The notes under the pieces were generated by a model that was not told the origin of the DNA, searched no databases, and saw only the letters and a program-made list of their open reading frames with translations. Positions 45,419-60,864 of a DNA stretch of 64,000 bases are shown one piece after another. The stretch's first letter is position 1, and each line of letters opens with the position of its first letter. The stretch is from contig NZ_RAPN01000001.1 of NCBI RefSeq assembly GCF_003610535.1, forward strand, positions 2,715,320-2,779,319, in the 5' to 3' direction. A program made the translations under genes and the position numbers. The stretch comes from Mangrovibacterium diazotrophicum (GTDB lineage Bacteria > Bacteroidota > Bacteroidia > Bacteroidales > Prolixibacteraceae).

Positions 45419-47863
45419 TTAAAACCGGTAAGCAAAGCTGGCCGACAAGGTTCGCGGACGCTGTGGATTAATGGTACTCCAACCACTGTAATATTCCACA
45501 TCGCTCAAGTTATCAAGCTTCAGTGCTAAACGGAATTTATCCATTTCATAGAAAACGGATGCGTTGAGAATTGTGTAAGCGGGAAGTGTAAACGTCCCAG
45601 TTGCGGCATAATTAATGATATTGTTTTCGCCGATATAGTTCAGGCCGAATCCAGCACCCAAACCGTCCAAACTCCCACTCTGCAATCGGTAGCTGGCCCA
45701 AAAGTTAAAGGTGTTTTCCGGTCCGGCCTCCAACGGACGGGTACCCACGACACCATCAGCACCCGACACAACTTCGCTATCGTTGAAACTGTATCCCAAA
45801 ACAGCATTGAAACCTGAGAAAGGGTTTGCAATGACACTCAACTCAACCCCTTTACTTTCTACTTCTCCATCCTGCAGGTAATCACGAGGATTATCCGGGT
45901 CTGTCATCACCTTGTTACGCACTTTAATGTCGTAGTAGCTGAGGCTCGCACTCAGTCGATCTTCCCAAAGGCTGGTTTTCACGCCGATTTCCGCCTGGTT
46001 CGCATGTTCCGGATCGAAGGACTTTGTTCGCTGGTTACTGCCATCAGCATCCGATACGGTTTGTGATGCCACATTGCTAAAACCATCCATGTAGTTGGCA
46101 AAAACGGTCAGCTTATCCAGAATCGGTTGATAGGTTATTCCGAACTTTGGAGAGAACGCTGTTTGATCATCCTCATCGCTTTCCGGATCACCCTCAAACC
46201 GATCGACACGCAAACTGGCCATGACCGACAAAGCCTTGGATACATTTACGACATCGGATACATAAGCACCGAACACCTTTTCTTTGGTAATTGAGTTACT
46301 AACTGAAACGCCTTCCAACAAAGCATCCATCGCTTGTTTGGATAGTACTCCACTGTCGAAATTGGAGACCGTTTCACCGCCATAAACAACATCATATACG
46401 GTCTGTGCATCATCACTCCCAATGTACACCAATCCGTTCGTTGTGTAACCAGTGCTATTGTTAATGTAGTTGCGTTGCATAAAATCGAATCCGACCACCA
46501 TTCGATTACGAAGACCGCCGACTTTGAAATCGCCGATAAAGTTCTGCTGAATATCCGTAACGTCTGTGGTAGCATTCTGATCACTCACGTAACGGGCAAA
46601 CACCGCACCGTTGGGCAAATAAGTTACCGTGTTTGTATTGATTGATTCGTACAGATAGGAGTAGTATCCTAACGCTTTGGTCAGACTTCTGCTTACGGCC
46701 GTTTGCGAGGTCCAAGCTGAAGACAATTTGTAATTCATTTGTGCCTGCAAACTATAGGCGGGATTTTTCACCGGCAAATTGTTTGATGTATAAGAACGTT
46801 TGGGATCGTAAGGCATCTCGTCAATATTAGCGAATGTCAATGCATTACTGCGGTTCAGGAACAACATCGTTTGGTTGGTTTGCTCGTTTTGCATCAGCTC
46901 GGCGACAACCAGAAACGACAAACGTTCTGAGGCCTGATAAGAGAGCGTCGGTGCAACAAAAAACGACTTCCGGTATCCGGCGTCCTGCCAACTGTTTTGA
47001 TAATGATAAGCCGTATTAAGCCGGAAAAGAACTTTTCCTTCCTCGTCCAATGGTAAATTCACATCAGCGGTCAAACGGTTCAAACCGTAACTACCTGTCA
47101 GGTATGTGAATTCGCCGCCAAAGCTTTCGTAAGGTTTTTTAGTCACAATATTGATCAGTCCACCATACGAAATCAGACTCGATCCGTAGAGTGTTCCGGA
47201 AGGTCCCTTCATGACCTCGATTGCCTCGATATTGGCCGGATCGGGGCTTCCGTGTGTTAACGCAGGCAAACCGTTCATCAGGGTAGGCTGAATGCTGAAA
47301 CCCCTCATTGAATAGTATCCCGCACCGTCGTTTCCTCGCCCGGTAGATTCCCACAATTTCTGCATTCCGGGCACATTCTTCAAAGCATCGTCGAAATTTA
47401 CAACCAGCTGTTCCTCCAGGAGCTCCGCATTCACCACATTATACACTTGCGGGTTTTCCAGATTCTTTAGAGGCATTTTTGCTACGTATTCACTCTGCTT
47501 TTCAGTAAAGCGATTGGTTCGCTCCTTGGCAACAACCACTTCATCCAAATTCTCGTTCGATTCCTGCAACACCACGACTCCCAAATCAACGTTTTGCTGC
47601 AACAGATCGACCTTTTGTACCAGTGTCCGAAATCCAACAAATGAGAAACGAAGATTCAACTTCGAAGAAGAGAGGTTTTCAAGTACGAATGCACCCGACT
47701 CGTTGGTTTGAGTACCTTTTGTACTGCTTGAGACAGTTATGTTGACACCAACCAGGGGGTGTTGGTTGGCGTCAACCACCCGACCGGTTACCCGATAAGT
47801 TTGCGCTATTGAAAATTCAAAAAGCAAACAAACTAAACAAAATAATAAACCTAGTTTTTTCAT
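45419..47863 (-). CDS. TonB-dependent siderophore-type receptor
   Basis: An 814-residue receptor from the ATG at 47863 (MKKLGLLFCLVCLLFEFSIAQ, signal peptide); the frame extends upstream to 47944 without a signal. It has a carboxypeptidase-regulatory-like domain (about 22-105), a plug with VMKGPSGTLYGSSLISYGGLINIVTKKP, and a barrel ending RPRTLSASFAYRF. The plug and the motif DALKNVPGMQKLWESTGRGNDGAGYYSMRGF are those of ferrichrome/ferric-siderophore receptors. It lies downstream of the PepSY gene (126 bases), a pairing typical of siderophore uptake and reduction. No Fur box was recognised. Confidence 0.9.
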   Translation of the reverse strand: MKKLGLLFCLVCLLFEFSIAQTYRVTGRVVDANQHPLVGVNITVSSSTKGTQTNESGAFVLENLSSSKLNLRFSFVGFRTLVQKVDLLQQNVDLGVVVLQESNENLDEVVVAKERTNRFTEKQSEYVAKMPLKNLENPQVYNVVNAELLEEQLVVNFDDALKNVPGMQKLWESTGRGNDGAGYYSMRGFSIQPTLMNGLPALTHGSPDPANIEAIEVMKGPSGTLYGSSLISYGGLINIVTKKPYESFGGEFTYLTGSYGLNRLTADVNLPLDEEGKVLFRLNTAYHYQNSWQDAGYRKSFFVAPTLSYQASERLSFLVVAELMQNEQTNQTMLFLNRSNALTFANIDEMPYDPKRSYTSNNLPVKNPAYSLQAQMNYKLSSAWTSQTAVSRSLTKALGYYSYLYESINTNTVTYLPNGAVFARYVSDQNATTDVTDIQQNFIGDFKVGGLRNRMVVGFDFMQRNYINNSTGYTTNGLVYIGSDDAQTVYDVVYGGETVSNFDSGVLSKQAMDALLEGVSVSNSITKEKVFGAYVSDVVNVSKALSVMASLRVDRFEGDPESDEDDQTAFSPKFGITYQPILDKLTVFANYMDGFSNVASQTVSDADGSNQRTKSFDPEHANQAEIGVKTSLWEDRLSASLSYYDIKVRNKVMTDPDNPRDYLQDGEVESKGVELSVIANPFSGFNAVLGYSFNDSEVVSGADGVVGTRPLEAGPENTFNFWASYRLQSGSLDGLGAGFGLNYIGENNIINYAATGTFTLPAYTILNASVFYEMDKFRLALKLDNLSDVEYYSGWSTINPQRPRTLSASFAYRF

Positions 47864-47989
47864 GAATTTTAATTGAATTAATGGAGTTAAATGAAAAAAC
47901 ACGACCGAAAAAAAAGACATAGCGAGTGCCTTCCAGCGGCCCAAAAGCCACCAGTCATGTTTATCGAATATCTATAGATTCCTACTGAA

Positions 47990-49132
47990 TCACTGAGATT
48001 CAATCAATTGATTCCGCAATGATCTCTTACTTTTCTTTTTGCGTCGTTTCAGCCAAAACCAAAAGCCGGTTACCGGTAAACTGGCTGAAAGCAAACTCAT
48101 AATTGCGGCGAGAAGCTTTCCTGCGAAACCGCCGATGGCACCGGTATGCACTTCATAGTTTACCCGACGAATCAATTCCGGTGGACCGGCATCTGCGAAG
48201 CGACCGTAAATGTGCGGAGACGGAATTTCGTTTAAACTATACTGATCGTAGAATAAATAGTTCATACGCCAATAACCCGGTTTTTCCTGCACTTCGACTA
48301 ATATTGACTTTTCAGGAGAATCGACGCCGTGCAACTCAACTTGTGCCGTTTCACCAAACTCAGCCCGAACTAGACGATATACGCTGTCGAGGGGATTCGT
48401 CGTTAAGACAGTACCAATCAAGGTTGTATCTGAAGGAGGGATACTGAATTTAGCCTCTTTTTGCCCGCCTGTTGCCCGGTACATCCACTGACCGAAATCC
48501 TGAAATAACCAGACAGAACCGGTAAGCAAAAACAAAACAATAAAAACGGTTGCATAAAGGCCCAGTACCTGGTGCCACTCTCTCAGTTGTGCAGTTTTAT
48601 TTTGGGTTTTCGAGAACCAAAAAGCGCCTTTTGTCCTTCGTGACTTGGGCCACCAAATCACAAAACCGGTAATCAACAACACAAAATAGCTGATCACCAT
48701 AAATTTCATCAGTATACCACCAATCGCAGGTGGTAACCATAAATAGCGATGCCCGATCAATACCAATCCCCAAAAACTTTTCAGGAAATTGGTTTCGTGC
48801 AACAGTTCTCCGGTATAAGGATTGAGATATGCAGCCCCGTAATAGAGCGGTGATCCCTGGTAATAAATCACCTCGATTGCCTTCTCCCTGCCATTGAAAA
48901 CAACACTGTGAATCTTTGTATTTGGGCGCACAGTCTGAGCTTTTTCAAAGGCAAAGGACGGCGAAATCAAAGGGGTGTCCTGCGCTTGAACAAATCGATA
49001 CTCATCGAATTGTTCGAACTCATCCTTAAAGGCATAGAGCACTCCGGTGATTGAAACAATAAAGACAACCAAACCGGAAATCAAACCTCCGTAGAGGTGT
49101 ACTTTAGAAAATAAATTTTTTATTCGCATCAA
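47990..49132 (-). CDS. PepSY-associated transmembrane protein, probable siderophore-iron reductase partner
   Basis: A 380-residue inner-membrane protein with four main hydrophobic segments (about 14-34, 138-160, 190-212 and 335-357) and PepSY-like parts between them (FEKAQTVRPNTKIHSVVFNG). His residues in the helices (for example HLYGGLISG, IGHRYLWLPP, REWHQVLG, YEVHTGAIGGF) fit haem ligation, as in PepSY_TM proteins thought to reduce ferric siderophores. It is upstream of, and probably cotranscribed with, the TonB receptor. Confidence 0.88.
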   Translation of the reverse strand: MMRIKNLFSKVHLYGGLISGLVVFIVSITGVLYAFKDEFEQFDEYRFVQAQDTPLISPSFAFEKAQTVRPNTKIHSVVFNGREKAIEVIYYQGSPLYYGAAYLNPYTGELLHETNFLKSFWGLVLIGHRYLWLPPAIGGILMKFMVISYFVLLITGFVIWWPKSRRTKGAFWFSKTQNKTAQLREWHQVLGLYATVFIVLFLLTGSVWLFQDFGQWMYRATGGQKEAKFSIPPSDTTLIGTVLTTNPLDSVYRLVRAEFGETAQVELHGVDSPEKSILVEVQEKPGYWRMNYLFYDQYSLNEIPSPHIYGRFADAGPPELIRRVNYEVHTGAIGGFAGKLLAAIMSLLSASLPVTGFWFWLKRRKKKSKRSLRNQLIESQ

Positions 49133-49331: not shown

Positions 49332-51320
49332 TTAGAAATAGAAGGCTGCGCGTTTCAGGCGCATCTCGTGGTAGGGTCCTTTACGAATGACTTTAATAAT
49401 TGATCGCCGGTTGACGGCATGTTCTTCTTCCGAACATTTCACCCCGTCGTAACAAATATTCAGCAAGCGACTTTCACCAAACCCTTTGTAGCGAATTCGT
49501 TCGGGGCGGATATAACGGGATATAAAGTAGTTGTCGATAACTTTAGCACGCTTGTCTGACAAAATATTATTCGACTCGCGACGTCCGCGGCTGTCGGCAT
49601 GCGATTCAATCCGCACTTCCAAATCGGGGTTTTCAGCCAGTACGTCAATAATTGGGTTTAAAATATCGTAGGCGTCGTCGCGAATGGTCCACTTAGCCAA
49701 ATCATAATGCACGGCATAAACCTCCAGAACCTGGATCGGTTCGCCGTCTTCCATATCCATGTAGAGCGGACGAACTCCGTCGCCTTCGGCCTGCAAATCA
49801 GCTTGCATATCGATTTCAACCTGATCCGCTTTTTCACAGACCAAATCCATACGAGATTCAAAATAGCTTCTGCGTGAAACACGCAGGGAATACGCTTCTC
49901 CCCGATTCAATGTCAACGTAGCAGATCCGTCAACACCCGTGAGGCTGGTTGCAATCGTATCTCCGTTTACATCGACCGCGATAACCTGCGCCAATTTAAC
50001 CTTCTCCTTGCTGTCGCTATCCTGAACGATAACGCGAACCGGTAAGGGGACAATATTTCGTTCGAAATAATAAAGATCGTCATTGCGCTTTCCGCCCCGA
50101 TTGGAGGCAAAATAGCCTTCTTCATCATACACCGTGAATGCCATGCTGAAATCGTCATAGGAACTGTTGATCGGAGCTCCAAGATTCTTGACCCGCACCA
50201 CTTTCCCATCCTTCAAATCAGCCCGGAACAAATCCAAACCGCCCAGCCCTTCCAAGCCACTGGATGAAAAATAGAGTGTACTGTCATTGGCTAAGTACGG
50301 AAACAACTCGCTTTCCGAGGTATTTACCAAGGGGCCCAGGTTTCTCGGAGTTGTCCAGTTACCGCGATCAAAATAACTGATATAAAGGTCTGTCAAACCA
50401 TAACCACCATCCTGATTTGAGGCAAAAACCAAAATCCGACCATCTGCATTCACTGCCGGATGAGCCACTGAATATTTTTTGCTGTTGAACGGAAACTCCG
50501 CTGATGGCTTCCAATCTCCATCCTGAAGCGAGGCCTGTTGAATTTTTAGCTGAACAATTTTATTCGGATCTAAGTGAACGCCTCGAAACTTCTGGTTTTG
50601 GGTAACAAACATTTTACCGGCCTCGCTGGCGATCGCAAGCGGACCATCATGCGCCTTTGTTCTCAAATTAGGTGCATAAACTTCGGGAGTGCCCAACTGA
50701 CCATCGGGAAGAATCTGGGATGCAAATATTTTGAGGTAAGGTTCTTCTTCTCCGTATGATTTTCGTTTGGTGCCCGAGCGCCGGCCGGCAGAACAGAAAA
50801 TGAGTTTGTCTCCGTACACCACCGGACCAAGCTCAGATAAATGGGTGTTGACATTTGACGGCCGAATGGTATAATTAACCGAATCTTGCAGCAACTGCTC
50901 AATATGAGCCAACTGGTCTTCGAAGTTTTGCCCCAATGAGTCGTTTTGCAAATCCCGATACTCCATCAACCAATAAGCTGCTTCTTCGTAATTAGCATCT
51001 TTTCGCAGGGCTTTGGCATAGCCAAGTAAATCGGCGGGTTCGGCTTTATCTCGTTGTATTAAGCGTTTATAATAGCGGAGAGCAAGATCATTCTCGCCCG
51101 CTTTGTAGGCCGCATCGGCCATACGTCGTAAAGCTTCGTTGTTATTTCTATCTTTTTTGAAGACGTCTTCGTAAAGCCGCAAAGCTTTGTAATAGGACTC
51201 ATCCTGATAGTACAAATCAGCCCTTTTCATCTTTCCGGTTTGTGCAAAAGAAGCAACAGACAAGCAAATCAAGATGCAAGTCAATATTCCCAATTTCCCC
51301 AAAACGAATCTTATCCCCAT
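49332..51320 (-). CDS. OmpA-family protein with TPR and WD40-like (PD40) regions, PorE-like T9SS accessory
   Basis: A 662-residue protein from the ATG at 51320 (MGIRFVLGKLGILTC, signal peptide ending SFAQ); a further ATG lies 24 bases upstream. Order: TPR (about 22-125), PD40 beta-propeller repeats (about 155-420, with LFPYLANDSTLYFSSSGLEGLGGLDLF), a Cna/carboxypeptidase-regulatory-like domain (about 425-505), and an OmpA peptidoglycan-binding domain (about 545-650, IESHADSRGRRESNNILSDKRA). This order is that of PorE and of OmpA proteins beside SprF-type genes. It probably anchors the surface system to peptidoglycan. It is the last gene of the cluster. Confidence 0.88.
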   Translation of the reverse strand: MGIRFVLGKLGILTCILICLSVASFAQTGKMKRADLYYQDESYYKALRLYEDVFKKDRNNNEALRRMADAAYKAGENDLALRYYKRLIQRDKAEPADLLGYAKALRKDANYEEAAYWLMEYRDLQNDSLGQNFEDQLAHIEQLLQDSVNYTIRPSNVNTHLSELGPVVYGDKLIFCSAGRRSGTKRKSYGEEEPYLKIFASQILPDGQLGTPEVYAPNLRTKAHDGPLAIASEAGKMFVTQNQKFRGVHLDPNKIVQLKIQQASLQDGDWKPSAEFPFNSKKYSVAHPAVNADGRILVFASNQDGGYGLTDLYISYFDRGNWTTPRNLGPLVNTSESELFPYLANDSTLYFSSSGLEGLGGLDLFRADLKDGKVVRVKNLGAPINSSYDDFSMAFTVYDEEGYFASNRGGKRNDDLYYFERNIVPLPVRVIVQDSDSKEKVKLAQVIAVDVNGDTIATSLTGVDGSATLTLNRGEAYSLRVSRRSYFESRMDLVCEKADQVEIDMQADLQAEGDGVRPLYMDMEDGEPIQVLEVYAVHYDLAKWTIRDDAYDILNPIIDVLAENPDLEVRIESHADSRGRRESNNILSDKRAKVIDNYFISRYIRPERIRYKGFGESRLLNICYDGVKCSEEEHAVNRRSIIKVIRKGPYHEMRLKRAAFYF

Positions 51321-51454
51321 AAATTTACATTGCAAAAACTGCAATTTTCAAAGCCGTTTTTTTTCTTCTAAGTTTTTCGGGTTGAATGATTCAAAAGTGA
51401 CCAAACAGCAACATCCTGTTCGCATCAACTTTTAATCGACAACCTCTTGCAATT

Positions 51455-52432
51455 CTAGAAATAGCGAGGGGACATATACCTACGGCGACCGGTGTTAACC
51501 ACAAAATTGAGTAGAATTTCGTGGGTTCCTTTATTGAACGAATTGAGATCCGTTGCCGTCACATCATAAGCATAGCCAACCTTCAACTGTTTGGTTACAA
51601 ACATCTGTGCCATCGCGCCAACTGCATCTCCAATTCGCCAGTTAGCGCCAACCCAGAGTCGTTCGTAAAATAGAAGATGTGCCGACAAATCAACTGATAT
51701 CGGTGAGTTCGGTACGCATTTAACCATCGTGTAGGGTTTGAACTTTACATCCCGGTTAATGTCGAAAACATATCCTCCAATTGCAAAGAAATGCATTTCT
51801 TCTTTACTTGCCAACTGTGAGGAATACCCCGTCTCGTGAATTTGATTTTCCATTAACTTCGGAACTGAAATACCTGCAAAAAGGCGTTCGTTGTAAAAGA
51901 ACACTCCAATACCAAAATTCGGAAGAATCTTCCTGGTCACGTCGTCAGCCAAGAGAGGATCTCCCTGATCGTTGACTTCTAAAATCGAATAATCTGTGTT
52001 GTAATAATTGACACCAGCTTTCAACCCAAACGACAGGTAAGTTCGATAATCCATACGAACCTTAAAAGAATAATCGACGTACGCCCCAGTTTGTCTGACA
52101 GGTCCAATTTTATCCGTGATAAATGACAATCCAACGCCTGTATGAAGATTATTAAGGGGCATCATTCCGGATAGCGATTGAGTCACCGGAGCACCCTCTA
52201 TGCCTACCCACTGATTCCGACTCAGTAAATTCAATTCAATTGTTGATCCAACGCTTGCATAAGCCGGGTTGATCGAGAGGATGTTGTTCATGTACTGCGT
52301 AAACATCGGGTCCTGCTGTGCCCAAACGGGGCCTCGGCCAAGCAGAATTATCAGCAGAAGCAGCAAGCACCTCAACACTGCACTCCGTCTAAGCAGCCAT
52401 TCTGGTTTGATATGTAATACATTTCTTTCCAT
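51455..52432 (-). CDS. PorP/SprF-family T9SS outer-membrane protein
   Basis: A 325-residue protein with a signal peptide ending near VWAQQDP and the family opening QDPMFTQYMNNILSINPAYA, then a beta-barrel pattern ending EILLNFVVNTGRRRYMSPRYF. PorP/SprF proteins serve type-B-CTD substrates, often encoded next to them, by docking them at the cell surface. Here the ATG immediately follows the stop codon of the type-B-CTD gene with no gap, strong evidence that the two act together. Confidence 0.93.
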   Translation of the reverse strand: MERNVLHIKPEWLLRRSAVLRCLLLLLIILLGRGPVWAQQDPMFTQYMNNILSINPAYASVGSTIELNLLSRNQWVGIEGAPVTQSLSGMMPLNNLHTGVGLSFITDKIGPVRQTGAYVDYSFKVRMDYRTYLSFGLKAGVNYYNTDYSILEVNDQGDPLLADDVTRKILPNFGIGVFFYNERLFAGISVPKLMENQIHETGYSSQLASKEEMHFFAIGGYVFDINRDVKFKPYTMVKCVPNSPISVDLSAHLLFYERLWVGANWRIGDAVGAMAQMFVTKQLKVGYAYDVTATDLNSFNKGTHEILLNFVVNTGRRRYMSPRYF

Positions 52433-55315
52433 TTATCGCTCGATGTATACGAACCCACTTAATTTTTCCTGTCCTTCACCCAAACTCAAACTGTAGAAGT
52501 AGGTTCCTGACGCAACCGGTCCATTTCCAATCCGAACGCCCACGTTGGCAACACCATCCCAATAGCCGTTTTCGCCATAGTGAGTCGATTGATAAACCAG
52601 GTTCCCCCAGCGGTTAAAGATCTTGAGGTTCACATTATCATATTTGCGTAATCCTTTTATCTCGAAATAGTCGTTGTAACCATCGCCATTCGGGGTGAAC
52701 GCATTTGGAATAAACAAGGCTTCTTCGTTGACCACCACCAGCACAGTTGCCTCGTCGCACTTATTCAGATAAGTACACACCTGGTAAACGAAATTATCCT
52801 GTCCTACAAACTCCTGATCAGGCGTATAGACAATCGTTGAGTCCGTGCGCACTTCAACCATACCGTTGGACGGCGGGCTGATAATTGACACTGAAGCCGG
52901 ATTCAGGTCGCCCTGAGGCACATCGTTTCGCAACACGTTAATGCTGACATAGTTGTTCACCAAGGCCTGAGCCTCATCGTCAACAGCCTGTATCCAGATA
53001 CCGACAATCACTGAATCCTGATCCATACATCCATATTCGTCAGTAATGTTCACGTAGTATTTACCAACCCCCTTCACTTCCGGGGTCGCACTATCCTGTC
53101 CCGACACAATTACACCGCTGCTCGCCGATGTCCAGCTATAGGTGAGGTTACTACCAATACTAGCACTCGCATCAAGCAGTATCGATTCTGTCGAATTTTC
53201 AACAAAAACATAGGCTTCCGCAACAACATCCGGCGCAGGCGCAACAACAACATTCACCGTTCTTGTATTTGTATTCCCCAAAGCGTCCGTTACAGTAAGG
53301 GTGTATGTTGAACTCTCGCCCGGGTAGAAGATCGGCGCAGAGCTTGAAGCATCAGATAAATAGTCTCCGGGAGACCAGCTGTAGGTGAGCGGTGCTAACC
53401 CGGTACTTTTCGAAGCATCCAGTACTGCCGAGACGCAAGCACCAGTCTCAAACTCACTTTTGACAATAGCCACCGGCTCTTCAATGTATGAACTAATATA
53501 TGCAGTTGCATACGACTCTCCTGCCAGAGTGCTGATTTCATAAACGAACTGATCTGTAAAGTAACCAATCTGACCAGCCGAAGGCGTGTAGGTAAATGTG
53601 CCATCATCGTTAAGCAACACAGTGCCATGTTGCGGACTTCCATTTGTCGCGATAGCATAAGTATAGTCGGCAGCACCGTCTGTCCGTTTGTTTGCCGGGA
53701 GGCTAGTCGTCAGAATTCCTGAATTATAAAAAGCAGCATCTCCCGCCAATAAATCTTCCAGTGCAAATTCATCGCCCAAAACATAAATCGTGACGGTTGC
53801 CCAATCGCAGCTGCTGCTACAAGCCTTGTAACTAAACGTTTCAGCTCCGGTGAAACCATCAGCTGGCGCATAGGTGAAAGAACCATTTCCCTGATAGCTG
53901 AAATTGCCACCCAAATCAGAGAAGTTCAAATCAGAAACCTGGATCACGCCACCATTCAGATCAAAATCTCCGGTAAGGAAATTACCTGAAAGTGTGCTGC
54001 CAGCTGCAACAGCAAAATATTTATCGACAGCTGAAGGTATTGCACTTGTAAAGTCAGTTTCTAAGATCTGAATATCAACAAAGGCGTTGGAACAGCTTTG
54101 AGTCCCATCTGTAGCCGTTTCGCACAACTGGTATTCAAATTGCAGATCGCCGGTGTAATCCGCCGCCGGCTCAAAGGTGTAAGCACCTGTTTTCGTATTG
54201 AAAGCTGTCAGTTTCCCGGCATCTGAATCGGGAATGGAAATCACTTTCACCTGCAGCGTACCGGTATCATGAAAATCGTTTGTCAACACATTGCCATAAA
54301 GCAGTTCGTTTTTCCAGCCCTGGTTAATATCGTCGATAGCTAAAATTGGTGTGGCTTCGGCATCCGGATCAGGTTCGTCCTCGTCGGCCACAACGCTAAT
54401 CGAAAGCTGTTGCCATTCGCTGTAACACGAATTCGCAGCTTTGGCCCGAACCTGCACCAGGTAAACGCCTACTTGATCGAAAAGCGCTTCATCTGAAGTT
54501 TCTGACTTCGAAGAAAGCACCAGCTCACTGCCATCGGGCAGAACGAGCTTCCACTCGTAAGTAAAACTACCGCTGCTGTTTACGCTAAAGGCTTGTTGGT
54601 CGCCTTGTACCAGCTCAAAGGTGGATTTTGCAAACGAAAACTGTGGTTGAGCCAATAGAGTCAGCTCAAAAGTATCTTGTCCCTCCTGGGGTTGAATGGT
54701 CTGATTTTGGGCATCGGCTGCTCCTGTTAGTGTAATTTCGTAAGTCCGATCAACGGAGCCGCTTCCGCTAATGTTGGAATCGTCGATGATTAAGGATTGA
54801 TCGGCAAAATTGATTTGTTGCGATGTTTGAGCCACACCGTCAACTGTAAAGGCTAAAGTTATCGGGAAAGCACTCTCGTCAAGCGCATCACCTCCCGAAC
54901 CGGTCAACGAAACCGGAATTGAAATCCCATCCTCCAGCTCGCTAAAACAAAGCGTATTCGAAAGGGAAGGGTAAGAAACATAGAAACTGGAGGCGTTGAC
55001 CTCCAAAGCTAAAGCTTTTTTATTGGTACAACCGGAAAAATCGGTTTCTGTTACGACCAGTAAATAGCTACCGGCCGACAACCACTGTATCGTTAACTGG
55101 CTTCCGGCAGCACCTGCTGTAATCTGATAATCTGAGCTATTGGCAGAAGTATAAGGACTTGTTGCCGTGAGTACTTCCCAAACAAAAGTGCTTCCCACGT
55201 GATCCTCTACCAAGTAAGTGTAATCCTTGCCTAAAATAGGAGAAATAGCATCCTGAGCGGCCACATTCGTGGCCGCCAGAACTATCAATAATAATATCAG
55301 GATGCTATTTTTCAA
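52433..55315 (-). CDS. large Ig/PKD/cadherin-like surface protein with T9SS type B (CHU_C) sorting domain
   Basis: A 960-residue exported protein (signal 1-20, TNVAAQ). It starts with an Ig-like module shared with the next two upstream genes (about 25-110, ending in ETDFSGCTNKKALALEVN), then further beta-sandwich domains, several cadherin/VCBS-like repeats with the TYTP or TYAP-x2-FTG-x-ETFSYKAC pattern (about 320-620), PKD-like domains (about 625-790) and a final cadherin-like domain. The last 95 residues, opening FIPNAFTPNGDGYNDYFEI and including NRWGNLVYQS, are a clear gliding-motility-type type B CTD. It is the likely main substrate of the adjacent PorP/SprF. Confidence 0.9.
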   Translation of the reverse strand: MKNSILILLLIVLAATNVAAQDAISPILGKDYTYLVEDHVGSTFVWEVLTATSPYTSANSSDYQITAGAAGSQLTIQWLSAGSYLLVVTETDFSGCTNKKALALEVNASSFYVSYPSLSNTLCFSELEDGISIPVSLTGSGGDALDESAFPITLAFTVDGVAQTSQQINFADQSLIIDDSNISGSGSVDRTYEITLTGAADAQNQTIQPQEGQDTFELTLLAQPQFSFAKSTFELVQGDQQAFSVNSSGSFTYEWKLVLPDGSELVLSSKSETSDEALFDQVGVYLVQVRAKAANSCYSEWQQLSISVVADEDEPDPDAEATPILAIDDINQGWKNELLYGNVLTNDFHDTGTLQVKVISIPDSDAGKLTAFNTKTGAYTFEPAADYTGDLQFEYQLCETATDGTQSCSNAFVDIQILETDFTSAIPSAVDKYFAVAAGSTLSGNFLTGDFDLNGGVIQVSDLNFSDLGGNFSYQGNGSFTYAPADGFTGAETFSYKACSSSCDWATVTIYVLGDEFALEDLLAGDAAFYNSGILTTSLPANKRTDGAADYTYAIATNGSPQHGTVLLNDDGTFTYTPSAGQIGYFTDQFVYEISTLAGESYATAYISSYIEEPVAIVKSEFETGACVSAVLDASKSTGLAPLTYSWSPGDYLSDASSSAPIFYPGESSTYTLTVTDALGNTNTRTVNVVVAPAPDVVAEAYVFVENSTESILLDASASIGSNLTYSWTSASSGVIVSGQDSATPEVKGVGKYYVNITDEYGCMDQDSVIVGIWIQAVDDEAQALVNNYVSINVLRNDVPQGDLNPASVSIISPPSNGMVEVRTDSTIVYTPDQEFVGQDNFVYQVCTYLNKCDEATVLVVVNEEALFIPNAFTPNGDGYNDYFEIKGLRKYDNVNLKIFNRWGNLVYQSTHYGENGYWDGVANVGVRIGNGPVASGTYFYSLSLGEGQEKLSGFVYIER

Positions 55316-55338
55316 GAGACTCGCGCTTATCCAATGAA

Positions 55339-56247
55339 TTACGGTTCAGTTGTCACAATAACGCCAGAGTTAGGTCTTGCGCTAACAACTTGTTTGCGAT
55401 TACCGTTGTTGACATCCGTAACATCGTTACCATTTTCATCTTCACTGGTATTAGCTGCATCCAACAATGTAACAGTAATGTCTTGAGCTGTCAAGCCTTC
55501 CATCGCCGTTCCATTATCAATGGTAACTTTCACCCAAATAGACGCATTACCGGAAGCAACATCAATATCATTAGCTACACCGTCTGTAGTCAAAGCTCCC
55601 GAACCACCAGTACCAGCACTTGTTGTACCCCATGTTGCAGTTACTGTTGCTCCTGTTGTATTCGTTGTTGCAATTGTGAATTGAGGACTCCAACCAGTGT
55701 TAGTTGTATTGATACCTGAAGCTGTTATTTTATAATACAAATCAACTGTTCCATAATCATATACAAAGTTTTGTGCATCAGTCAAAGTGCCATCTCCCGA
55801 ACCTGCATAACTATCAACTACCACAGCAGGAGCACATTGTGCAGCATCTTGAGCTAAATCACCGTTAGATGAGTCAACGTTAACGATTTCAAGTTCAAAT
55901 CCATTGACAGGAGATACAGCAATAGCTTTGTGATTTGAACATCCTGATAAAGTCTCTGTTACATGAACGTAATATGTCGTTCCTGCAGCTGGGTTATGCC
56001 AAGTAATTGAAACTTCTTCTGTTCCCGCCCCAGCAGTAACTTCTGCAATTGTAGAAGCCACTGCACTACTTCCAGCCACATCAGTTGTGATTGTCCAAGC
56101 AAATGTTGCAGAAGCGTTCGCTGTTACAGAATAAGTGTGGGTTGAACCAACAAAAGGAGTGATACCGCTATCAGTACTTTGACCAAAAACATTAGAAGTA
56201 ATGGCTACGAAAGCCAACATACACAAAGACAAAAGTAATTTTTTCAT
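55339..56247 (-). CDS. small Ig-like exported protein of the surface cluster
   Basis: A 302-residue protein with signal peptide 1-22 (SNVFGQ). The Ig-like module at about 30-115 (GSTHTYSV, FAWTI, VSITWHNPAAGTTYYVHVTETLSGCSNHKA) matches the N-terminal module of the 960-residue protein downstream. A second beta-rich domain (about 118-275) follows, and the C-terminus ends RPNSGVIVTTEP, like the PNTSEIQTD tail of the 789-residue protein upstream. It has no T9SS sorting domain that I can recognise, so its route to the surface is unclear. Gaps are 50 bases (upstream) and 23 bases (downstream). Confidence 0.75.
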   Translation of the reverse strand: MKKLLLSLCMLAFVAITSNVFGQSTDSGITPFVGSTHTYSVTANASATFAWTITTDVAGSSAVASTIAEVTAGAGTEEVSITWHNPAAGTTYYVHVTETLSGCSNHKAIAVSPVNGFELEIVNVDSSNGDLAQDAAQCAPAVVVDSYAGSGDGTLTDAQNFVYDYGTVDLYYKITASGINTTNTGWSPQFTIATTNTTGATVTATWGTTSAGTGGSGALTTDGVANDIDVASGNASIWVKVTIDNGTAMEGLTAQDITVTLLDAANTSEDENGNDVTDVNNGNRKQVVSARPNSGVIVTTEP

Positions 56248-56297
56248 TTTTCTCGATTTTTGAAGTTTAACTTTTTGATTTATTAATTAATTTATTT

Positions 56298-58667
56298 TCA
56301 ATCTGTTTGTATTTCTGATGTATTCGGAACTCCACTGCTGGTAAGCTCCTCCGAGTTCTCGCCGACAGTTTGTTCGCTGATTTCGTGTACCGAGTAGGTA
56401 TCACTTGCTGCTATTGAAATATTGATTTTGAAATTGGTTGCGGTGACACTTTGAATCGTATATTTCAACTGCACTTTATAACTCGAATTATCCGTTTTTA
56501 AAACTTGCATGAAGGGCATGGTAGACGTGTCGGAACAACCTGACGTAAGTGTCAGATCCGCGGTCAGTGCAGTTTGCGTTATTCCGGAAACAGAACCGGA
56601 GCAAGCGGTTATTGATGTCCCCCCGTCGTCCATCAAATCAACCGTGTAGTCAAAATTGTAAGGTGCTGTACCGTTTCCGCTGAAAGTTACTTCCCAAGTC
56701 ATCGTCGTCGGCGTGTCTGTTTCACCAGCCTGGCAATGGTCGCCAAAATCAGCCAAAACTGCGTTGTACGAATTCTCGATGACCAGAATTGGCAATTCTG
56801 CTGTAGCAGAACAACCGGAGCTTTTTGTTACAACCAGCACGTATGAACCGCTAGCCAATGTGCTAAATTCAATCGCAGTTTGCGCATCATTATCCGGATC
56901 AAATGAAAGTCCGGAGTTTATTGGAGATGAATAATTATCGACAAGTCCATCTTCATTCGCATCTGCAAATAATTGCCAACTGTAACTATATCCTGCTTCA
57001 GCGCTTCCCCCATCAACCTCGTAAGTATGAGTTGAAGTTTGAACGGGTTGAATACCGGATCCTGCACCGGTTGCAGAAGAATTATCGTCGTAAGTAATTG
57101 GCGTAATAGAGATGGGACTGGAAACCATAACTTTTTGAGTAGCCTCTTCAGAAGTATTGCCACACATATCTTCGACAGTCCAATAGATTATAGTTTCACC
57201 AACCGGGAATTCATCTGATATGCTGGCACTGTTACCGGTTTTTTCAACTCCGTTAATTGTGTAGCGATATGCGGGATCTGCAAATACTAAATTTCCATCA
57301 TCAGTTACCGCGTCAAAATCAAAATTAATTGTCGCATTAGCCGTACAATTTATCGTGTTAACAGTCGCGTTTTCATCTACTAAATCTCCAATCACTGGTG
57401 CGACATTATCTTGACCAACTTCAATCGTATATACAGACCATAATCCATCAGTACAACCATCCTCGCTGGTTTGGCGAACAGCAACATACGCCCCATCAAA
57501 GTCAGTTTCGGTCCAATCTACGGTTATTGTATAGGTGCTTGTTCCACCCACCCCACTTACCCCTAAATAACTCGCAGTATGTCCTTCGTATGTAGTGCTG
57601 TTACTGGTAACTTCAGCTCCGTTGAACGACGCTATTGTCCCGCCGTAAACCGCCCACTCGAAAAGATTGTTCTCTAGGTTTCCAGCATTTGTGGTTACTG
57701 CTTCAACTTTAAATGTCGTTGATGAACAAACTTTTGTCATCCCTTCGGTATTTCCAGCATTGGATAAATGATCATCCCAAAAAGTCGATGTCGTATTTAT
57801 ATAAGCCTCTCCCGGGCTCCCCTGAGCTTCCCATGCAGCTTGGTCGCCAATATTACTACAATTGCCCGAGGTACAATTATCAGAACCAAAAACAAAAAAA
57901 TGATTGGTGCTAACATAGGTCGCTGCTCCACTAATTACCTGATAATCTCCCCCTACAACTAGAATTCCGTCGGCCCCTAATTGTCCCGAAACGGTTAGGT
58001 TTTCATCAATAACTACAATTCCGCTATTTACATAAATATAGTGCGTACTTACACTCCCATCAACATCGACCACTGCACTGACATCACCCGTTGAAAGCTG
58101 ATGGGAAATAGTCGCGTCACCTCCAACCCACAAAACACCATATATGTATGAATTATTAACCGTGTAGCTACCTGTTATACTTGCTGTCGTCCCTGAAGAC
58201 ATGCTATGATCCCCGGACACCGTCAAAGAGCCTCCGACTGTCAACTCGCCGCTACTCTGCCCTAAATCACCCGAAATACTTACATTCCCAGTTACGGTCA
58301 ATGTGCCATTGATACTTAAACTTCGATTAGTTATCAGGTTGCCATTCACAATTAGCGTACCTCCGTTCTTTATATAAAGACTTACATTTGATAAGTCCAA
58401 ATCTCCGTTGATGATCAAAGTCCCACCATCAACTTCAATTTGCCCACCTGTCCAGCTTAGTACTCCCTCATAAGTAACCGTTGTTCCCGATTCAACAACA
58501 ACTCCATCACCGCTATTAGGATAAGATGTTTTACTCCAAGTTGCTCCTGCAGTCCAAACCCCTGACTGTGAACTATGATACCAAGCAGCAAATGAAATGG
58601 ATGGGATGATCAGCAAGCCAAATACAACCAGCAGTAATTTGATATGTCTTTTCAAATACTGCATCAT
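56298..58667 (-). CDS. beta-solenoid plus Ig/HYR surface protein
   Basis: A 789-residue exported protein (signal about 1-27, ISFAAW). Residues about 30-250 are short beta-solenoid repeats of the type GGTLIINGDLDLSN, GTLTVTGNVSISG and GGSLTVSGDHSMSS. Two Ig-like stretches follow, then an HYR-like domain (about 425-520; DNVAPVIGDLVDENATV, then GETIIYWTVEDMCGN), a STHTYEV Ig module like those of the two downstream genes, and a last beta domain ending PNTSEIQTD. Its ATG overlaps the stop of the preceding gene by four bases (ATGA). It is probably a structural surface protein. No sorting domain is recognised. Confidence 0.75.
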   Translation of the reverse strand: MMQYLKRHIKLLLVVFGLLIIPSISFAAWYHSSQSGVWTAGATWSKTSYPNSGDGVVVESGTTVTYEGVLSWTGGQIEVDGGTLIINGDLDLSNVSLYIKNGGTLIVNGNLITNRSLSINGTLTVTGNVSISGDLGQSSGELTVGGSLTVSGDHSMSSGTTASITGSYTVNNSYIYGVLWVGGDATISHQLSTGDVSAVVDVDGSVSTHYIYVNSGIVVIDENLTVSGQLGADGILVVGGDYQVISGAATYVSTNHFFVFGSDNCTSGNCSNIGDQAAWEAQGSPGEAYINTTSTFWDDHLSNAGNTEGMTKVCSSTTFKVEAVTTNAGNLENNLFEWAVYGGTIASFNGAEVTSNSTTYEGHTASYLGVSGVGGTSTYTITVDWTETDFDGAYVAVRQTSEDGCTDGLWSVYTIEVGQDNVAPVIGDLVDENATVNTINCTANATINFDFDAVTDDGNLVFADPAYRYTINGVEKTGNSASISDEFPVGETIIYWTVEDMCGNTSEEATQKVMVSSPISITPITYDDNSSATGAGSGIQPVQTSTHTYEVDGGSAEAGYSYSWQLFADANEDGLVDNYSSPINSGLSFDPDNDAQTAIEFSTLASGSYVLVVTKSSGCSATAELPILVIENSYNAVLADFGDHCQAGETDTPTTMTWEVTFSGNGTAPYNFDYTVDLMDDGGTSITACSGSVSGITQTALTADLTLTSGCSDTSTMPFMQVLKTDNSSYKVQLKYTIQSVTATNFKINISIAASDTYSVHEISEQTVGENSEELTSSGVPNTSEIQTD

Positions 58668-59485
58668 TGGATACTAATTTTATTCGTTTGGAAAGTCATT
58701 ACCTCCGCAGTTGCCGAATACCAAATCTCGCCGACTTTGTATACTGCTTTATATTCGCCTGCTTGGTCGGTAACCCAAGTTGCTTGGTTAGTGTTTTTCA
58801 CCAATGCCGCGCCATCCAAATACCAAGAAACTTTCGTAATAGCGTCTGTATAGCTTTTCAATTCTAATGTCACACCTAAACAAAATGCGCCAGTATTTGC
58901 AAAATCATCTGTTTGTGTCGATGAAGACACAATCGACTCATATATTCCATCCGGTAATTCTTCCGGATCCACATTATCGAGAAAATCTGGAAATCCACCT
59001 GCTTCACATTGATCACTGTCTTCTGTACTGCCGGTATAACTACCCTCACATTTCTCAAACGTAGTTCCAAAACCATCCACATCACCAAAAACATATATCT
59101 TTGCATCATCCGTTTCCAGTGTTCCTTGGTTTGATGATCCTCCTTTATCCAAGCTTCCCAAAACGATAAAATAACTGGAAAGATCTAACCGAACCTGGTT
59201 TCCCAAATCAGCATCACCATATACAATCACAACACCACCGGTATTTAGATTTAAGACTCCATTATTACCCATAGTAAGGTCTCCGTTAATAATCAGAGTA
59301 CCGTTAATTGTGAGCGTTCCATTAATCGTAACATTGTCATATGTTTCTGTTCCCGTTACCGTATATGAACTATTATTGGCAACAGTCAAATCAGCTGCAT
59401 ACCCTCCTAAACTTGCTGTAATGAATAAAATCAAGATTAGCAGAATCCGGCTGGCAAAGTGATATTTAGGGGTGGTTTGGTTCAT
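58664..59485 (-). CDS. short beta-solenoid surface protein, first gene of the surface cluster
   Basis: A 273-residue protein with a signal peptide (about 1-30, GGYAAD). Beta-solenoid repeats occupy about 32-140 (VTINGTLTINGTLIINGD, then MGNNGVLNLNTGG) and closely resemble the start of the 789-residue protein encoded next. The C-terminal quarter is Ig-like (VSWYLDGAALVKNTNQATW, AGEYKAVYKV). It has four Cys and no sorting domain. It is translationally coupled to the next gene by a 4-base overlap. Confidence 0.72.
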   Translation of the reverse strand: MNQTTPKYHFASRILLILILFITASLGGYAADLTVANNSSYTVTGTETYDNVTINGTLTINGTLIINGDLTMGNNGVLNLNTGGVVIVYGDADLGNQVRLDLSSYFIVLGSLDKGGSSNQGTLETDDAKIYVFGDVDGFGTTFEKCEGSYTGSTEDSDQCEAGGFPDFLDNVDPEELPDGIYESIVSSSTQTDDFANTGAFCLGVTLELKSYTDAITKVSWYLDGAALVKNTNQATWVTDQAGEYKAVYKVGEIWYSATAEVMTFQTNKISIQ

Positions 59486-60108
59486 ATTTTTCAGGGGTGC
59501 GCAATAGCGAATGTGAATTGCAATAGCAACCCGGGTGAGACAATTATACTGTTGTGCTTATTTTGTCTTTTTGAACCAATGGTATTGGCACATGAATATT
59601 CCCGCATGTATAAGTTTACAAATGACATATTAAATATCTTTCTGCAGGAATTTGTAGACTGAACCGACTTGGATATCGCGCTAAACTGTGCTTGGAAGAA
59701 GACAATAAAAAACCACGCTGTCAGCTTTTCAACTGCAACTCTTAAATCAGAACTCCCGTTACCGGTAAGATTCCAAACGTCTCCTTGTAATCGCTTAAAA
59801 GCAGAAATGATGCGACAAGATGCATCCCTTACAACAAAACATATCCGTTTCAAGCCAACAGCTAGTCGACTCAGGACAACTAAAAAAATTTGTAGGATTT
59901 GAAATCCCCACTCTAAACGACACAAGAGACTAAAAAAACTTTTATGACAAAGTTTAGTCTCCATTCACTCCACAAAATCCCGTTTGTACTCTTAAAATTT
60001 ATCAACCGGGATCGAAAATATGTAATATGCCCAGCTTTAAAAACTACAAAAGATCAAGAAGGCACATCTATCGACAAAAAGGCTATTTCTGTCGATAGTT
60101 CAATATGT
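59486..60108. other. 620-base intergenic region upstream of the surface cluster
   Basis: No credible gene. Two overlapping open frames (minus 59491-59964, plus 59669-59902) have no domain, signal peptide or family-like composition. The promoter of the surface cluster must be here; TATAATTG on the minus strand at 59541-59548 is a one-mismatch -7 box. The long leader could carry regulatory binding sites for the LytTR protein. Confidence 0.4.
60068..60098 (-). terminator. hairpin after the LytTR regulator gene
   Basis: Perfect 9-bp stem CTATCGACA/TGTCGATAG (60068-60076, 60090-60098) with a 13-base loop, 10 bases past the stop of the regulator gene on the minus strand. There is no good T tract after it; it may instead be a protein-binding palindrome. 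Confidence 0.45.
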
Positions 60109-60864
60109 CTAGAGTTTATTGTGGAGAAGCAGGTCCAAAAGCTCGTCTTTAAACTTTGGTGAGACTTTTAATTGCGATTTGTCGGTCATTTCGACCATTC
60201 CCCCGTCAGTTTTGACGTAGCGATTAATGCAGGTAAGGTTAACCAGGTGCGAACGATGAATCCGGAAAAAACCATGCGGCACCAACAACTGGTCGAATTC
60301 CAACAGCGTTCGGCTTATCAGAACCGAGGTACCATCTTTATAGAAAACACGGGTATAATTACGTTCGCCTTCGCAGCGCAGAATATTTTTCACCTTAATA
60401 ATGGCGAAACCATTCATTTCAGGCAAAGCAATGGTCACATCGTTCGGATCTTCGGTACGCTCAATCTGGCTTCGCAGGTTGGTATATTCGATTTTCGGCT
60501 TGATACCCGATGACTTGAGAATCCGTGTAATCGTGGATTTAACGTTCTCCGGAAGAACCGGCTTCAGTATGTAATCGAATGCTGAATATTTGAATGCAGT
60601 AATGGCGTAATCGTTGTAAGAGGTCACAAACACAAGCCGAAAATCGACCTCTGTCAGTTGGTCAATCAAGTCAAAACCAGTTCCATCCGGCATCTCAATA
60701 TCCAGAAATACCAAGTCAGGATCTGCTTCATTGATCAACTTCAATCCCTCACTTACCGAGCCTGCTTCGCCTACTATTTCTAATTCTTCAAAATTTTGAT
60801 TAATAATCCGATATAGAATTTTGCGCGCAAGCTGATCATCGTCTATAATTACCGTTCTGACCAT
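60109..60864 (-). CDS. LytTR-type response regulator, orphan
   Basis: A 251-residue regulator. The receiver domain (1-120) has Asp8/Asp9/Asp10, phosphorylation Asp55 (VFLDIEMPDG), Thr near VTSYNDYA and Lys in YILKPV. The LytTR DNA-binding domain (about 150-245) has ILRCEGERNYTRVF and FFRIHRSHLVNL. No histidine kinase gene is adjacent. It lies upstream of the surface cluster in the same direction, separated by 623 bases, so it is a candidate but unproven controller of it. It is divergent from tsaB. Confidence 0.92.
   Translation of the reverse strand: MVRTVIIDDDQLARKILYRIINQNFEELEIVGEAGSVSEGLKLINEADPDLVFLDIEMPDGTGFDLIDQLTEVDFRLVFVTSYNDYAITAFKYSAFDYILKPVLPENVKSTITRILKSSGIKPKIEYTNLRSQIERTEDPNDVTIALPEMNGFAIIKVKNILRCEGERNYTRVFYKDGTSVLISRTLLEFDQLLVPHGFFRIHRSHLVNLTCINRYVKTDGGMVEMTDKSQLKVSPKFKDELLDLLLHNKL

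Follow-up and report, generated by a model that had tools for sequence, protein, structure and literature searches.

A type IX secretion gene cluster of Mangrovibacterium diazotrophicum that may encode one surface adhesin divided among separate proteins

The six-gene row and its sorting-domain trio

The analysis concerned a window of 64,000 nucleotides from Mangrovibacterium diazotrophicum (contig NZ_RAPN01000001.1, positions 2,715,320 to 2,779,319) and, within it, a row of six genes, here called S1, S2, I3, C4, P5 and O6 in their 5' to 3' order. C4, P5 and O6 resemble a type IX secretion system (T9SS) substrate with its carrier and anchor, and the genes upstream of them encode secreted proteins that lack the C-terminal sorting domain (CTD) found in C4. 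The reading that we favour, and regard as moderately probable, is that the cluster specifies one long, ordered surface adhesin made as separate proteins, which would be joined by C-terminal donor strands and would have the CTD protein at its base. The ORF (open reading frame) listing confirmed the six frames described in an earlier note on this DNA, all on the minus strand and in the order and positions given there. The spacing was also exact, with a 4-base overlap followed by gaps of 50, 23 and 0 bases; the last gap of 134 bases holds with the ATG start of O6 and becomes 110 with the TTG start. The genes are as follows (aa, amino acids).

S1, 58664-59485, minus strand: CTD-less secreted protein of 273 aa with a solenoid-like N-terminal part, candidate tip (from the ORF and its similarity to S2)
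S2, 56298-58667, minus strand: CTD-less secreted protein of 789 aa with a G8 solenoid, an HYR-like domain, an internal I3 module and a tail, candidate tip (Pfam, blastp)
I3, 55339-56247, minus strand: 302 aa, PKD-like domain 1, second beta-sandwich domain and tail, founder of the small-protein family (alignments, model)
C4, 52433-55315, minus strand: 960 aa, N-terminal module like the small proteins, PKD, Big_9/cadherin-like repeats and type-B CTD, proposed base of the chain
P5, 51455-52432, minus strand: 325 aa, PorP/SprF carrier (Pfam/NCBIfam)
O6, 49332-51320 (ATG) or to 51344 (TTG), minus strand: 662 or 670 aa, TPR-PD40-CarboxypepD_reg-OmpA, PorE-like peptidoglycan anchor (Pfam/NCBIfam)

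C4 matched CHU_C in Pfam (3.3e-25, 88.5 bits against a cut-off of 27), and its C-terminus corresponded to the type-B sorting domain TIGR04131 of NCBIfam (9.5e-16, 57.7 bits against a cut-off of 35). P5, encoded directly downstream of C4, was identified by Pfam as PorP_SprF (1e-81, 274.9 bits). O6 gave TPR, PD40, CarboxypepD_reg and OmpA matches, with OmpA and PD40 above the Pfam cut-off and the other two below; its best NCBIfam matches, CHU_0125_OmpA and PorE, were both under the curated cut-offs (293.5 bits against 600 for PorE). Judged by these domains, C4 and P5 belong to the type-B CTD/PorP/PorE trio of the T9SS, and O6 is probably its PorE-like member. The trio is already known, and what is new is the CTD-less proteins upstream, apparently further parts of the adhesin. 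C4 had been called giant, a term that 960 aa does not bear out among proteins of its kind, since some relatives carry a single giant CTD gene before PorP (3,828 aa in locus L079 and at least 4,457 aa in L083). A sequence search for solved relatives returned none for P5 and none for C4.

A search limited to SprA_N located the T9SS translocon marker in the genome as two open frames of 2,516 and 2,533 aa. Both are strong SprA_N matches that adjoin in tandem outside the window (G000:C1:2853433-2866103, G000 being the source genome), and the genome may thus possess two T9SS translocons. It also contains nine PorP matches. Passages of PMC12635249 describe the attachment of SprF to GldK through twin cysteines in the SprF C-terminal tail. 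No cysteine was present in the C-terminal 25 residues of P5, and the same was true of the last 25 residues of all 29 PorP proteins longer than 250 aa in the 60 family loci introduced below. A complex of PorE, PorP and a type-B CTD protein, tied to peptidoglycan, is described in parts of PMC9143113, and a PorE-like gene is linked to static complexes in parts of PMC12618676. Because P5 lacks C-terminal cysteines of the SprF type and a PorE-like gene is present, the adhesin of the window is probably fixed rather than gliding. The sole PorP of the nine with two cysteines in its last 25 residues (L064, G000:C1:1665576-1666391) adjoins a 1,909-aa CTD-like protein, and the two are a candidate gliding adhesin pair.

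A family of small secreted proteins upstream of CTD genes

The I3 family had no match in Pfam or NCBIfam at E 0.1. In a starting set of 28 PorP loci (8 further loci of the source genome and 20 from relatives), 11 had, by their gene maps, small secreted proteins encoded ahead of the CTD gene (L057, L058, L065, L066, L067, L070, L071, L073, L078, L080 and L081), of which L057 and L058 are further clusters of the source genome; many of the other 17 stop at a contig edge or hold one long CTD gene. A profile built from an alignment of 21 of the small proteins matched 91 of 140 genomes of the bacterial family Prolixibacteraceae, in 18 of 23 genera. Co-occurrence was evaluated in 60 loci, one per genome and at most 20 kb each, from genomes that had not contributed to the profile; they were the best-listed match per genome for the first 60 genomes listed rather than a random draw. 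The CTD, PorP and PorE profiles came from the 28 starting loci, among which four of the 60 genomes (G010, G015, G017 and G020) were represented by other loci. Start codons and signal-peptide cuts in these surveys were assigned with a basic ORF caller and a pattern rather than a trained predictor.

A type-B CTD gene followed downstream on the same strand in 49 of the 60 loci. Where the stretch left room of 3 kb or more the figure was 46 of 49, and with 12 kb or more it was 41 of 42. The distance from the small gene to the CTD gene was below 400 bases in 25 of the 46 and within 1 kb in 6 more. PorP was found in 31 of the 60 loci (30 of the 49 with room) and a PorE-like gene in five (5/49). The earlier expectation that the upstream proteins co-occur with the whole trio was thus borne out for the CTD gene, which nearly always accompanies the family of the 302-aa protein, and not for PorP or the PorE-like gene, which are not constant; as far as the CTD gene goes, homologues of I3 were not scattered in the way that would have spoken against the note (46/49). 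These counts support the view that the family of I3 belongs with T9SS substrates. Some CTD genes of the PorP-less loci run past the fetched stretch, and others, from more than one genus, end well inside it (e.g., L144, L149, L174 and L175). Five loci of one genus (L174, L175, L179, L185 and L188) were compact clusters of about 397 and 359 aa plus a 300-aa CTD protein, with no PorP in the fetched locus; in L175, L179 and L188, small and CTD genes also occurred on the opposite strand.

The layout as a general trait of Bacteroidota was considered and dropped. Among 40 PorP loci from 13 genomes outside the bacterial family, 27 had a CTD gene as the nearest upstream gene listed on the strand, and none of the gene runs listed included a match to the small-protein profile; one of these outside loci, L283, yielded no PorP. 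In broader samples, the profile matched at least 15 of 247 genomes of the order at 1e-10, two of them in the family (G000 and G013) and 13 outside it, and at least 9 of 295 genomes of the class at 1e-5, G000 included; up to nine or seven candidates were scored per genome, which makes these counts lower bounds. The layout with small proteins is therefore mainly one of Prolixibacteraceae and rarer in other members of the order.

The two most upstream proteins differed from this family. The earlier note had named both as beta-solenoid proteins, which stands for S2, with a Pfam G8 match above cut-off (9.4e-7) and an HYR-like domain below it. S1 had no Pfam solenoid match and resembled only the solenoid region of S2 (35% over 91 residues, E 4e-4, blastp), on which ground the idea that S1 and S2 are unrelated was dropped. 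Modules shared with the CTD protein, also claimed in the note, were confirmed for domain 1 of I3 and the N-terminus of C4 (35-37% identity, E ~1e-11); S1 shares a module only with S2. I3 also matched residues 537-678 of S2 (E 1.8e-5, blastp), so that a copy of the I3 module lies within S2, starting at about residue 537. S1 matched 6 of 41 relatives. In two congeners (L065 and L066) the S1-like and S2-like parts form one protein, which suggests that S1 and S2 may be alternative or duplicated tips. The first genes of the loci carried variable, partly carbohydrate-binding-type domains: eight of the nine scanned had Pfam matches at 1e-3 and one had none, the domains including PA14, GEVED, C-type lectin, HYR, SprB repeat, MBG_2, Big_2 and Ig_3, some of them below cut-off.

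A domain divided between genes and a conserved C-terminal tail

The joining of these proteins is suggested by the following elements of the cluster, of which the tails are candidate donors and the N-terminal domains candidate acceptors.

C-terminal tail of S1, 58667-58696, minus strand: TFQTNKISIQ, without the family proline, the weakest of the three tails
C-terminal tail of S2, 56301-56330, minus strand: VPNTSEIQTD, candidate donor strand (family pattern)
I3 domain 1, 55915-56181, minus strand: PKD-like, first strand apparently missing, candidate acceptor (model)
C-terminal tail of I3, 55342-55377, minus strand: RPNSGVIVTTEP, with invariant P292, candidate donor strand (alignment; coil in the model)
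C4 domain 1, 54995-55255, minus strand: PKD-like, first strand apparently missing, candidate acceptor for I3 (model, alignment)
C4 residues 223-232, 54620-54649, minus strand: QPQFSFAKST, with invariant P224, counterpart in cis of the free tails, placed by the model where the third domain begins

The N-terminus of C4 is a small-protein module (profile E 1.2e-24) followed by a third, PKD-like domain, where the chain reads ..LLAQPQFSFAKSTFELVQGDQQAFSV... In a relative, L073, the region corresponding to C4 is encoded by two genes. The product of the first ends ..FKTPVTPEIKMN, with ..TPVTPEIKMN where C4 has ..AQPQFSFAKST, and that of the second has its own signal peptide and a mature part ..QVPQGEQRTYSV that starts near ELVQGDQQAFSV of C4. 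As the first gene ends at the tail-equivalent and the second starts past it, the break lies between the first and second strands of one PKD domain. The same split layout was present in L140 and L153, from two congeners of the L073 genome, and L078 and L070 break at the same place, L070 with one extra small gene between. Counted from the start of the mature protein, the aromatic residue of strand C lay at a median distance of 26 residues (interquartile range 25-32.5) among free small proteins and C4; the figure for C4 was 25 (Q21 to W46), versus 31 for its complete internal domain (P224 to W255). By this measure the free small proteins and C4 likewise appear to begin close to the second strand. 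The internal module copy in S2 is, by eye, preceded by extra residues at the place of the first strand (SSPISITPITYDD).

The small proteins share one layout: a PKD-like domain that begins beyond where its first strand would be, then a further domain, an invariant proline and a short tail. Four positions were invariant among 50 aligned members, namely a glutamine after the signal peptide (placed by eye), two cysteines and the proline near the C-terminus; P292 of I3 and P224 of C4 fall in the same alignment column. About eight residues follow the proline, often NTSxIxT(D/N). A proline at position -9 was found in 53 of 100 small proteins and 26 of 41 first genes, compared with 16 of 217 other ORFs of the loci (Fisher's test, 8e-19 and 1e-14, respectively, uncorrected for kinship). 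The first genes neither match the profile nor contributed to it. Of the 114 junctions in total, 108 had a tail by a rule that prefers a proline near -9.5, and 75 of these had it exactly at -9. In the further clusters L057 (G000:C1:2663500-2682500) and L058 (2690000-2709000), which are paralogous and encode short CTD proteins (343 and 347 aa), the tails are long and proline-rich, e.g., RPDVQEVAPTPF, and form a different class. In L280, which is not of the family, a 233-aa protein whose start is signal-like ends ..YNLPQIIN directly before a 3,600-aa CTD gene, possibly a distant case of such a tail.

Single-chain AlphaFold models were obtained for C4 1-318 (43-row alignment) and I3 (50-row alignment) and read as DSSP state and place in the fold. 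The C4 model had a mean predicted local distance difference test (pLDDT) value of 92.6, with strands 226-228 and 233-236 at or just after the tail-equivalent and before strand 239-247; its domain 1 had no strand of at least three residues ahead of residue 31. In the I3 model (mean pLDDT 89.5) the last strand was 283-288 and the tail, 289-302, was coil (block mean pLDDT 86, then 73); domain 1 again had none of that length ahead of residue 36, and a single bridge residue at 32. On the two models, then, the tail segment forms a strand where its chain continues into a further domain, as in C4, and is loose where the chain ends, as in I3. Solved domains aligning to C4 from residue 223 were 4r5o (Z 9.2, root-mean-square deviation (rmsd) 2.5, 79 aligned) and 1l0q (Z 9.1, rmsd 2.9, 83 aligned), one of which is an archaeal surface-layer protein with PKD domains in its title; the other high matches of C4 1-318 were mostly general immunoglobulin (Ig)-type tandems. 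Domain 2 of I3 resembled the calcium-binding domains of NCX1 (3gin, Z 10.0, rmsd 2.7, 115 aligned), the PorA N-terminal domain (6kjk, Z 8.8, rmsd 3.6, 127 aligned) and Gram-positive pilin domains (3rkp, Z 8.6, rmsd 3.8, 133 aligned). In the sequence search for solved relatives, the one match of the A3 profile, to an antibody chain (E 0.028), was taken as chance.

In the chain that we favour, the tail of each CTD-less protein, usually a proline and about eight residues, would supply the missing first (A) strand of the N-terminal PKD-like domain of the next protein. S1 and/or S2, solenoid proteins without such an N-terminal domain, would form the tip, I3 the link and C4 the base; the type-B CTD of C4 would carry the chain through the T9SS translocon and stay bound to PorP (P5), which the PorE-like O6 would tie to peptidoglycan. 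The gene order would run from tip to base, because the first genes have a tail and no acceptor, the middle genes have both, and the CTD gene combines an acceptor with the CTD. Since the middle proteins have Sec-type signals and no CTD, they would assemble in the periplasm by strand donation in trans and pass the outer membrane bound to the CTD protein. The earlier note had proposed a multi-subunit surface fibre or matrix with the CTD protein as export tip and the OmpA protein as base. A multi-subunit surface structure is still the best reading, with the opposite polarity: the CTD end is expected at the membrane, on PorP, which makes the CTD protein the base and the first genes the tip. The note had missed the split-domain junction and gave no joining mechanism.

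Tail similarity tracked acceptor similarity beyond the similarity of the donor's own domain (partial r 0.357, permutation maximum 0.216, 56 junctions). The comparison drew on 56 of the 58 junctions that combine a small-protein donor with a proline at -8 to -11, and no other of the 114 entered it; several acceptors were visibly cut short. As a test of pairing specificity the result was positive and not decisive.

Several observations weigh against the chain. The correlation of the tail with its own protein was no lower (partial r 0.426), and the permutation took no account of kinship, which makes the pairing test a weak one. Donation in trans is beyond what single-chain models can show, and the contrast of strand and coil is one between two different proteins. 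No proline occurred at -8 to -14 in 18 of 100 small-protein tails, and one sub-class has long, proline-rich tails; the S1 tail lacks the proline as well, and some tails of first genes are LPxTG-like. The first protein of L078, as called, continues about 30 residues past the break point. S1 and S2 would be two candidate tips for one acceptor. In 15 of the 46 loci over 1 kb, often holding other genes, separated the small gene from the CTD gene downstream, no CTD gene was recognised in 3 of the 49 loci with room (L150, L176 and L183), and 19 of the 49 had no PorP on either strand of the fetched locus.

Alternative explanations, related systems and meaning

The best-surviving alternative, which we nonetheless consider unlikely, is an ordinary type-B CTD/PorP/PorE operon whose upstream proteins act separately, aiding export or sitting on the machinery without forming a chain, like SprC and SprD before SprB. 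A precedent exists in Flavobacterium johnsoniae, where sprC and sprD reportedly share an operon with sprB and sprF (a title of Rhodes, 2011). SprC moves on the gliding track according to passages of PMC12635249, and some CTD genes of other families have an upstream gene with a signal-like start that neither matches the small-protein profile nor ends in a tail with proline at -9 (e.g., L276, L280, L292 and L301). Separate action would leave unexplained why the N-terminal module of C4 is free in some relatives and fused in others with a break inside a domain, and why first genes negative for the profile have the common tail. A sorting or processing signal, LPxTG-like or another C-terminal recognition peptide that hands the CTD-less proteins to an enzyme or exporter, is improbable. 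The tail is indeed short, conserved and at the extreme C-terminus, and some first genes end in LPNTGDIIPD or LPATGEIIPD. By eye, no hydrophobic stretch or basic end follows it; neither the T/G positions nor the residue preceding the proline is constant, the junctions of one operon have different tails, and in fused C4 the equivalent segment runs straight into the next domain in a confident model. Just as doubtful is a homopolymeric pilus in which I3 tails enter further I3 copies to give a many-unit fibre with S1 and S2 as minor tips: I3 combines a free tail with an acceptor-like domain, and donor-strand fusions of the CfaB pilin (3f84 and 3f85) are among its best Foldseek matches (E ~1e-6), at template modelling scores of 0.31-0.34 that leave the likeness only suggestive, while relatives carry one to several diverged, ordered subunits with tails differing by position and partly fused versions.

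Among known systems, the PorE-PorP-PG1035 complex and the PorE/type-B/SprF operons of F. johnsoniae, in the portions of PMC9143113 and PMC12618676 that deal with them, likewise place a type-B CTD protein on a PorP/SprF barrel tied to peptidoglycan by a PorE-like protein; unlike that complex, the window has CTD-less secreted proteins before the CTD gene, apparently further adhesin parts. The reported operon sprC-sprD-sprB-sprF is similar in having genes upstream of a type-B adhesin and its carrier; it differs in that P5 lacks the twin cysteines linking SprF to GldK and a PorE-like gene is present, which makes a static anchor the likelier reading. A parallel in working would be offered by chaperone-usher and class-5 (CFA/I) pili, in which an incomplete Ig-type domain is completed by the terminal strand of a neighbour and the tip adhesin has no acceptor. 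In the window, the donor strand would be C-terminal rather than N-terminal, the domains are PKD-like and export is predicted via the T9SS; none of the nine proteins scanned (six genes and three neighbouring ORFs) had a Pfam match to chaperone or usher families.

The type V pilins FimA and Mfa1 of Bacteroidota are lipoproteins processed by a protease. By eye, no lipobox cysteine was seen in S1, S2, I3 or C4, and Pfam gave no match of the six proteins to type V pilin families, of which distant members could be missed. C-terminal donor strand exchange is discussed for FimA in part of PMC5954841. The window holds an ordered row of different subunits. The GhpA grappling hook of Aureispira is also a tandem Ig-type surface protein, and its fragment 9flp was among the closest folds of C4 1-318 (Z 9.9, rmsd 12.2, 240 aligned), a match that may reflect common Ig tandems only. 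GhpA differs in being one giant protein. Grappling hooks are described as T9SS-secreted heptamers in passages of PMC11205867 that do not name GhpA. A literature search whose coverage left out preprints and most subscription papers found no paper joining type IX secretion with donor strands in the present sense; the strand-exchange passages that it returned, from PMC10202324, PMC10994853 and PMC5954841, concern type V pili.

Upstream of the cluster, one neighbouring gene recurs.

LytTR response regulator, 60109-60864, minus strand: flanks the locus in several relatives, 55-91% identical, no proven tie

The ORF at 59491-59964 was dropped as a gene, having no Pfam match. Downstream, positions 45419-49132 hold a large ORF that resembles, by eye, a TonB-dependent receptor, together with a PepSY-TM protein (Pfam). 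The promoter scan, which does not cover Bacteroidota promoters, was at background (23 found versus 21.4 expected), and 18 terminators were counted versus 10.4 expected. The closest named relatives of the DNA were Mangrovibacterium lignilyticum, then a Sunxiuqinia bin, then M. marinum.

The donor-strand chain would imply a new principle, which we put forward tentatively, as something rather short of probable: a non-covalent, ordered chain built in the periplasm by C-terminal donor strands and pulled whole through the T9SS by the single CTD of its last member, with proteins that carry no T9SS signal as passengers. If the chain exists, tip adhesins could be swapped by the exchange of one gene, and very long adhesins such as SprB would have a multi-gene counterpart with an exchangeable tip. 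T9SS substrates are recognised by their CTD and, should CTD-less passengers exist, secretome predictions based on this domain would miss a class of surface proteins.

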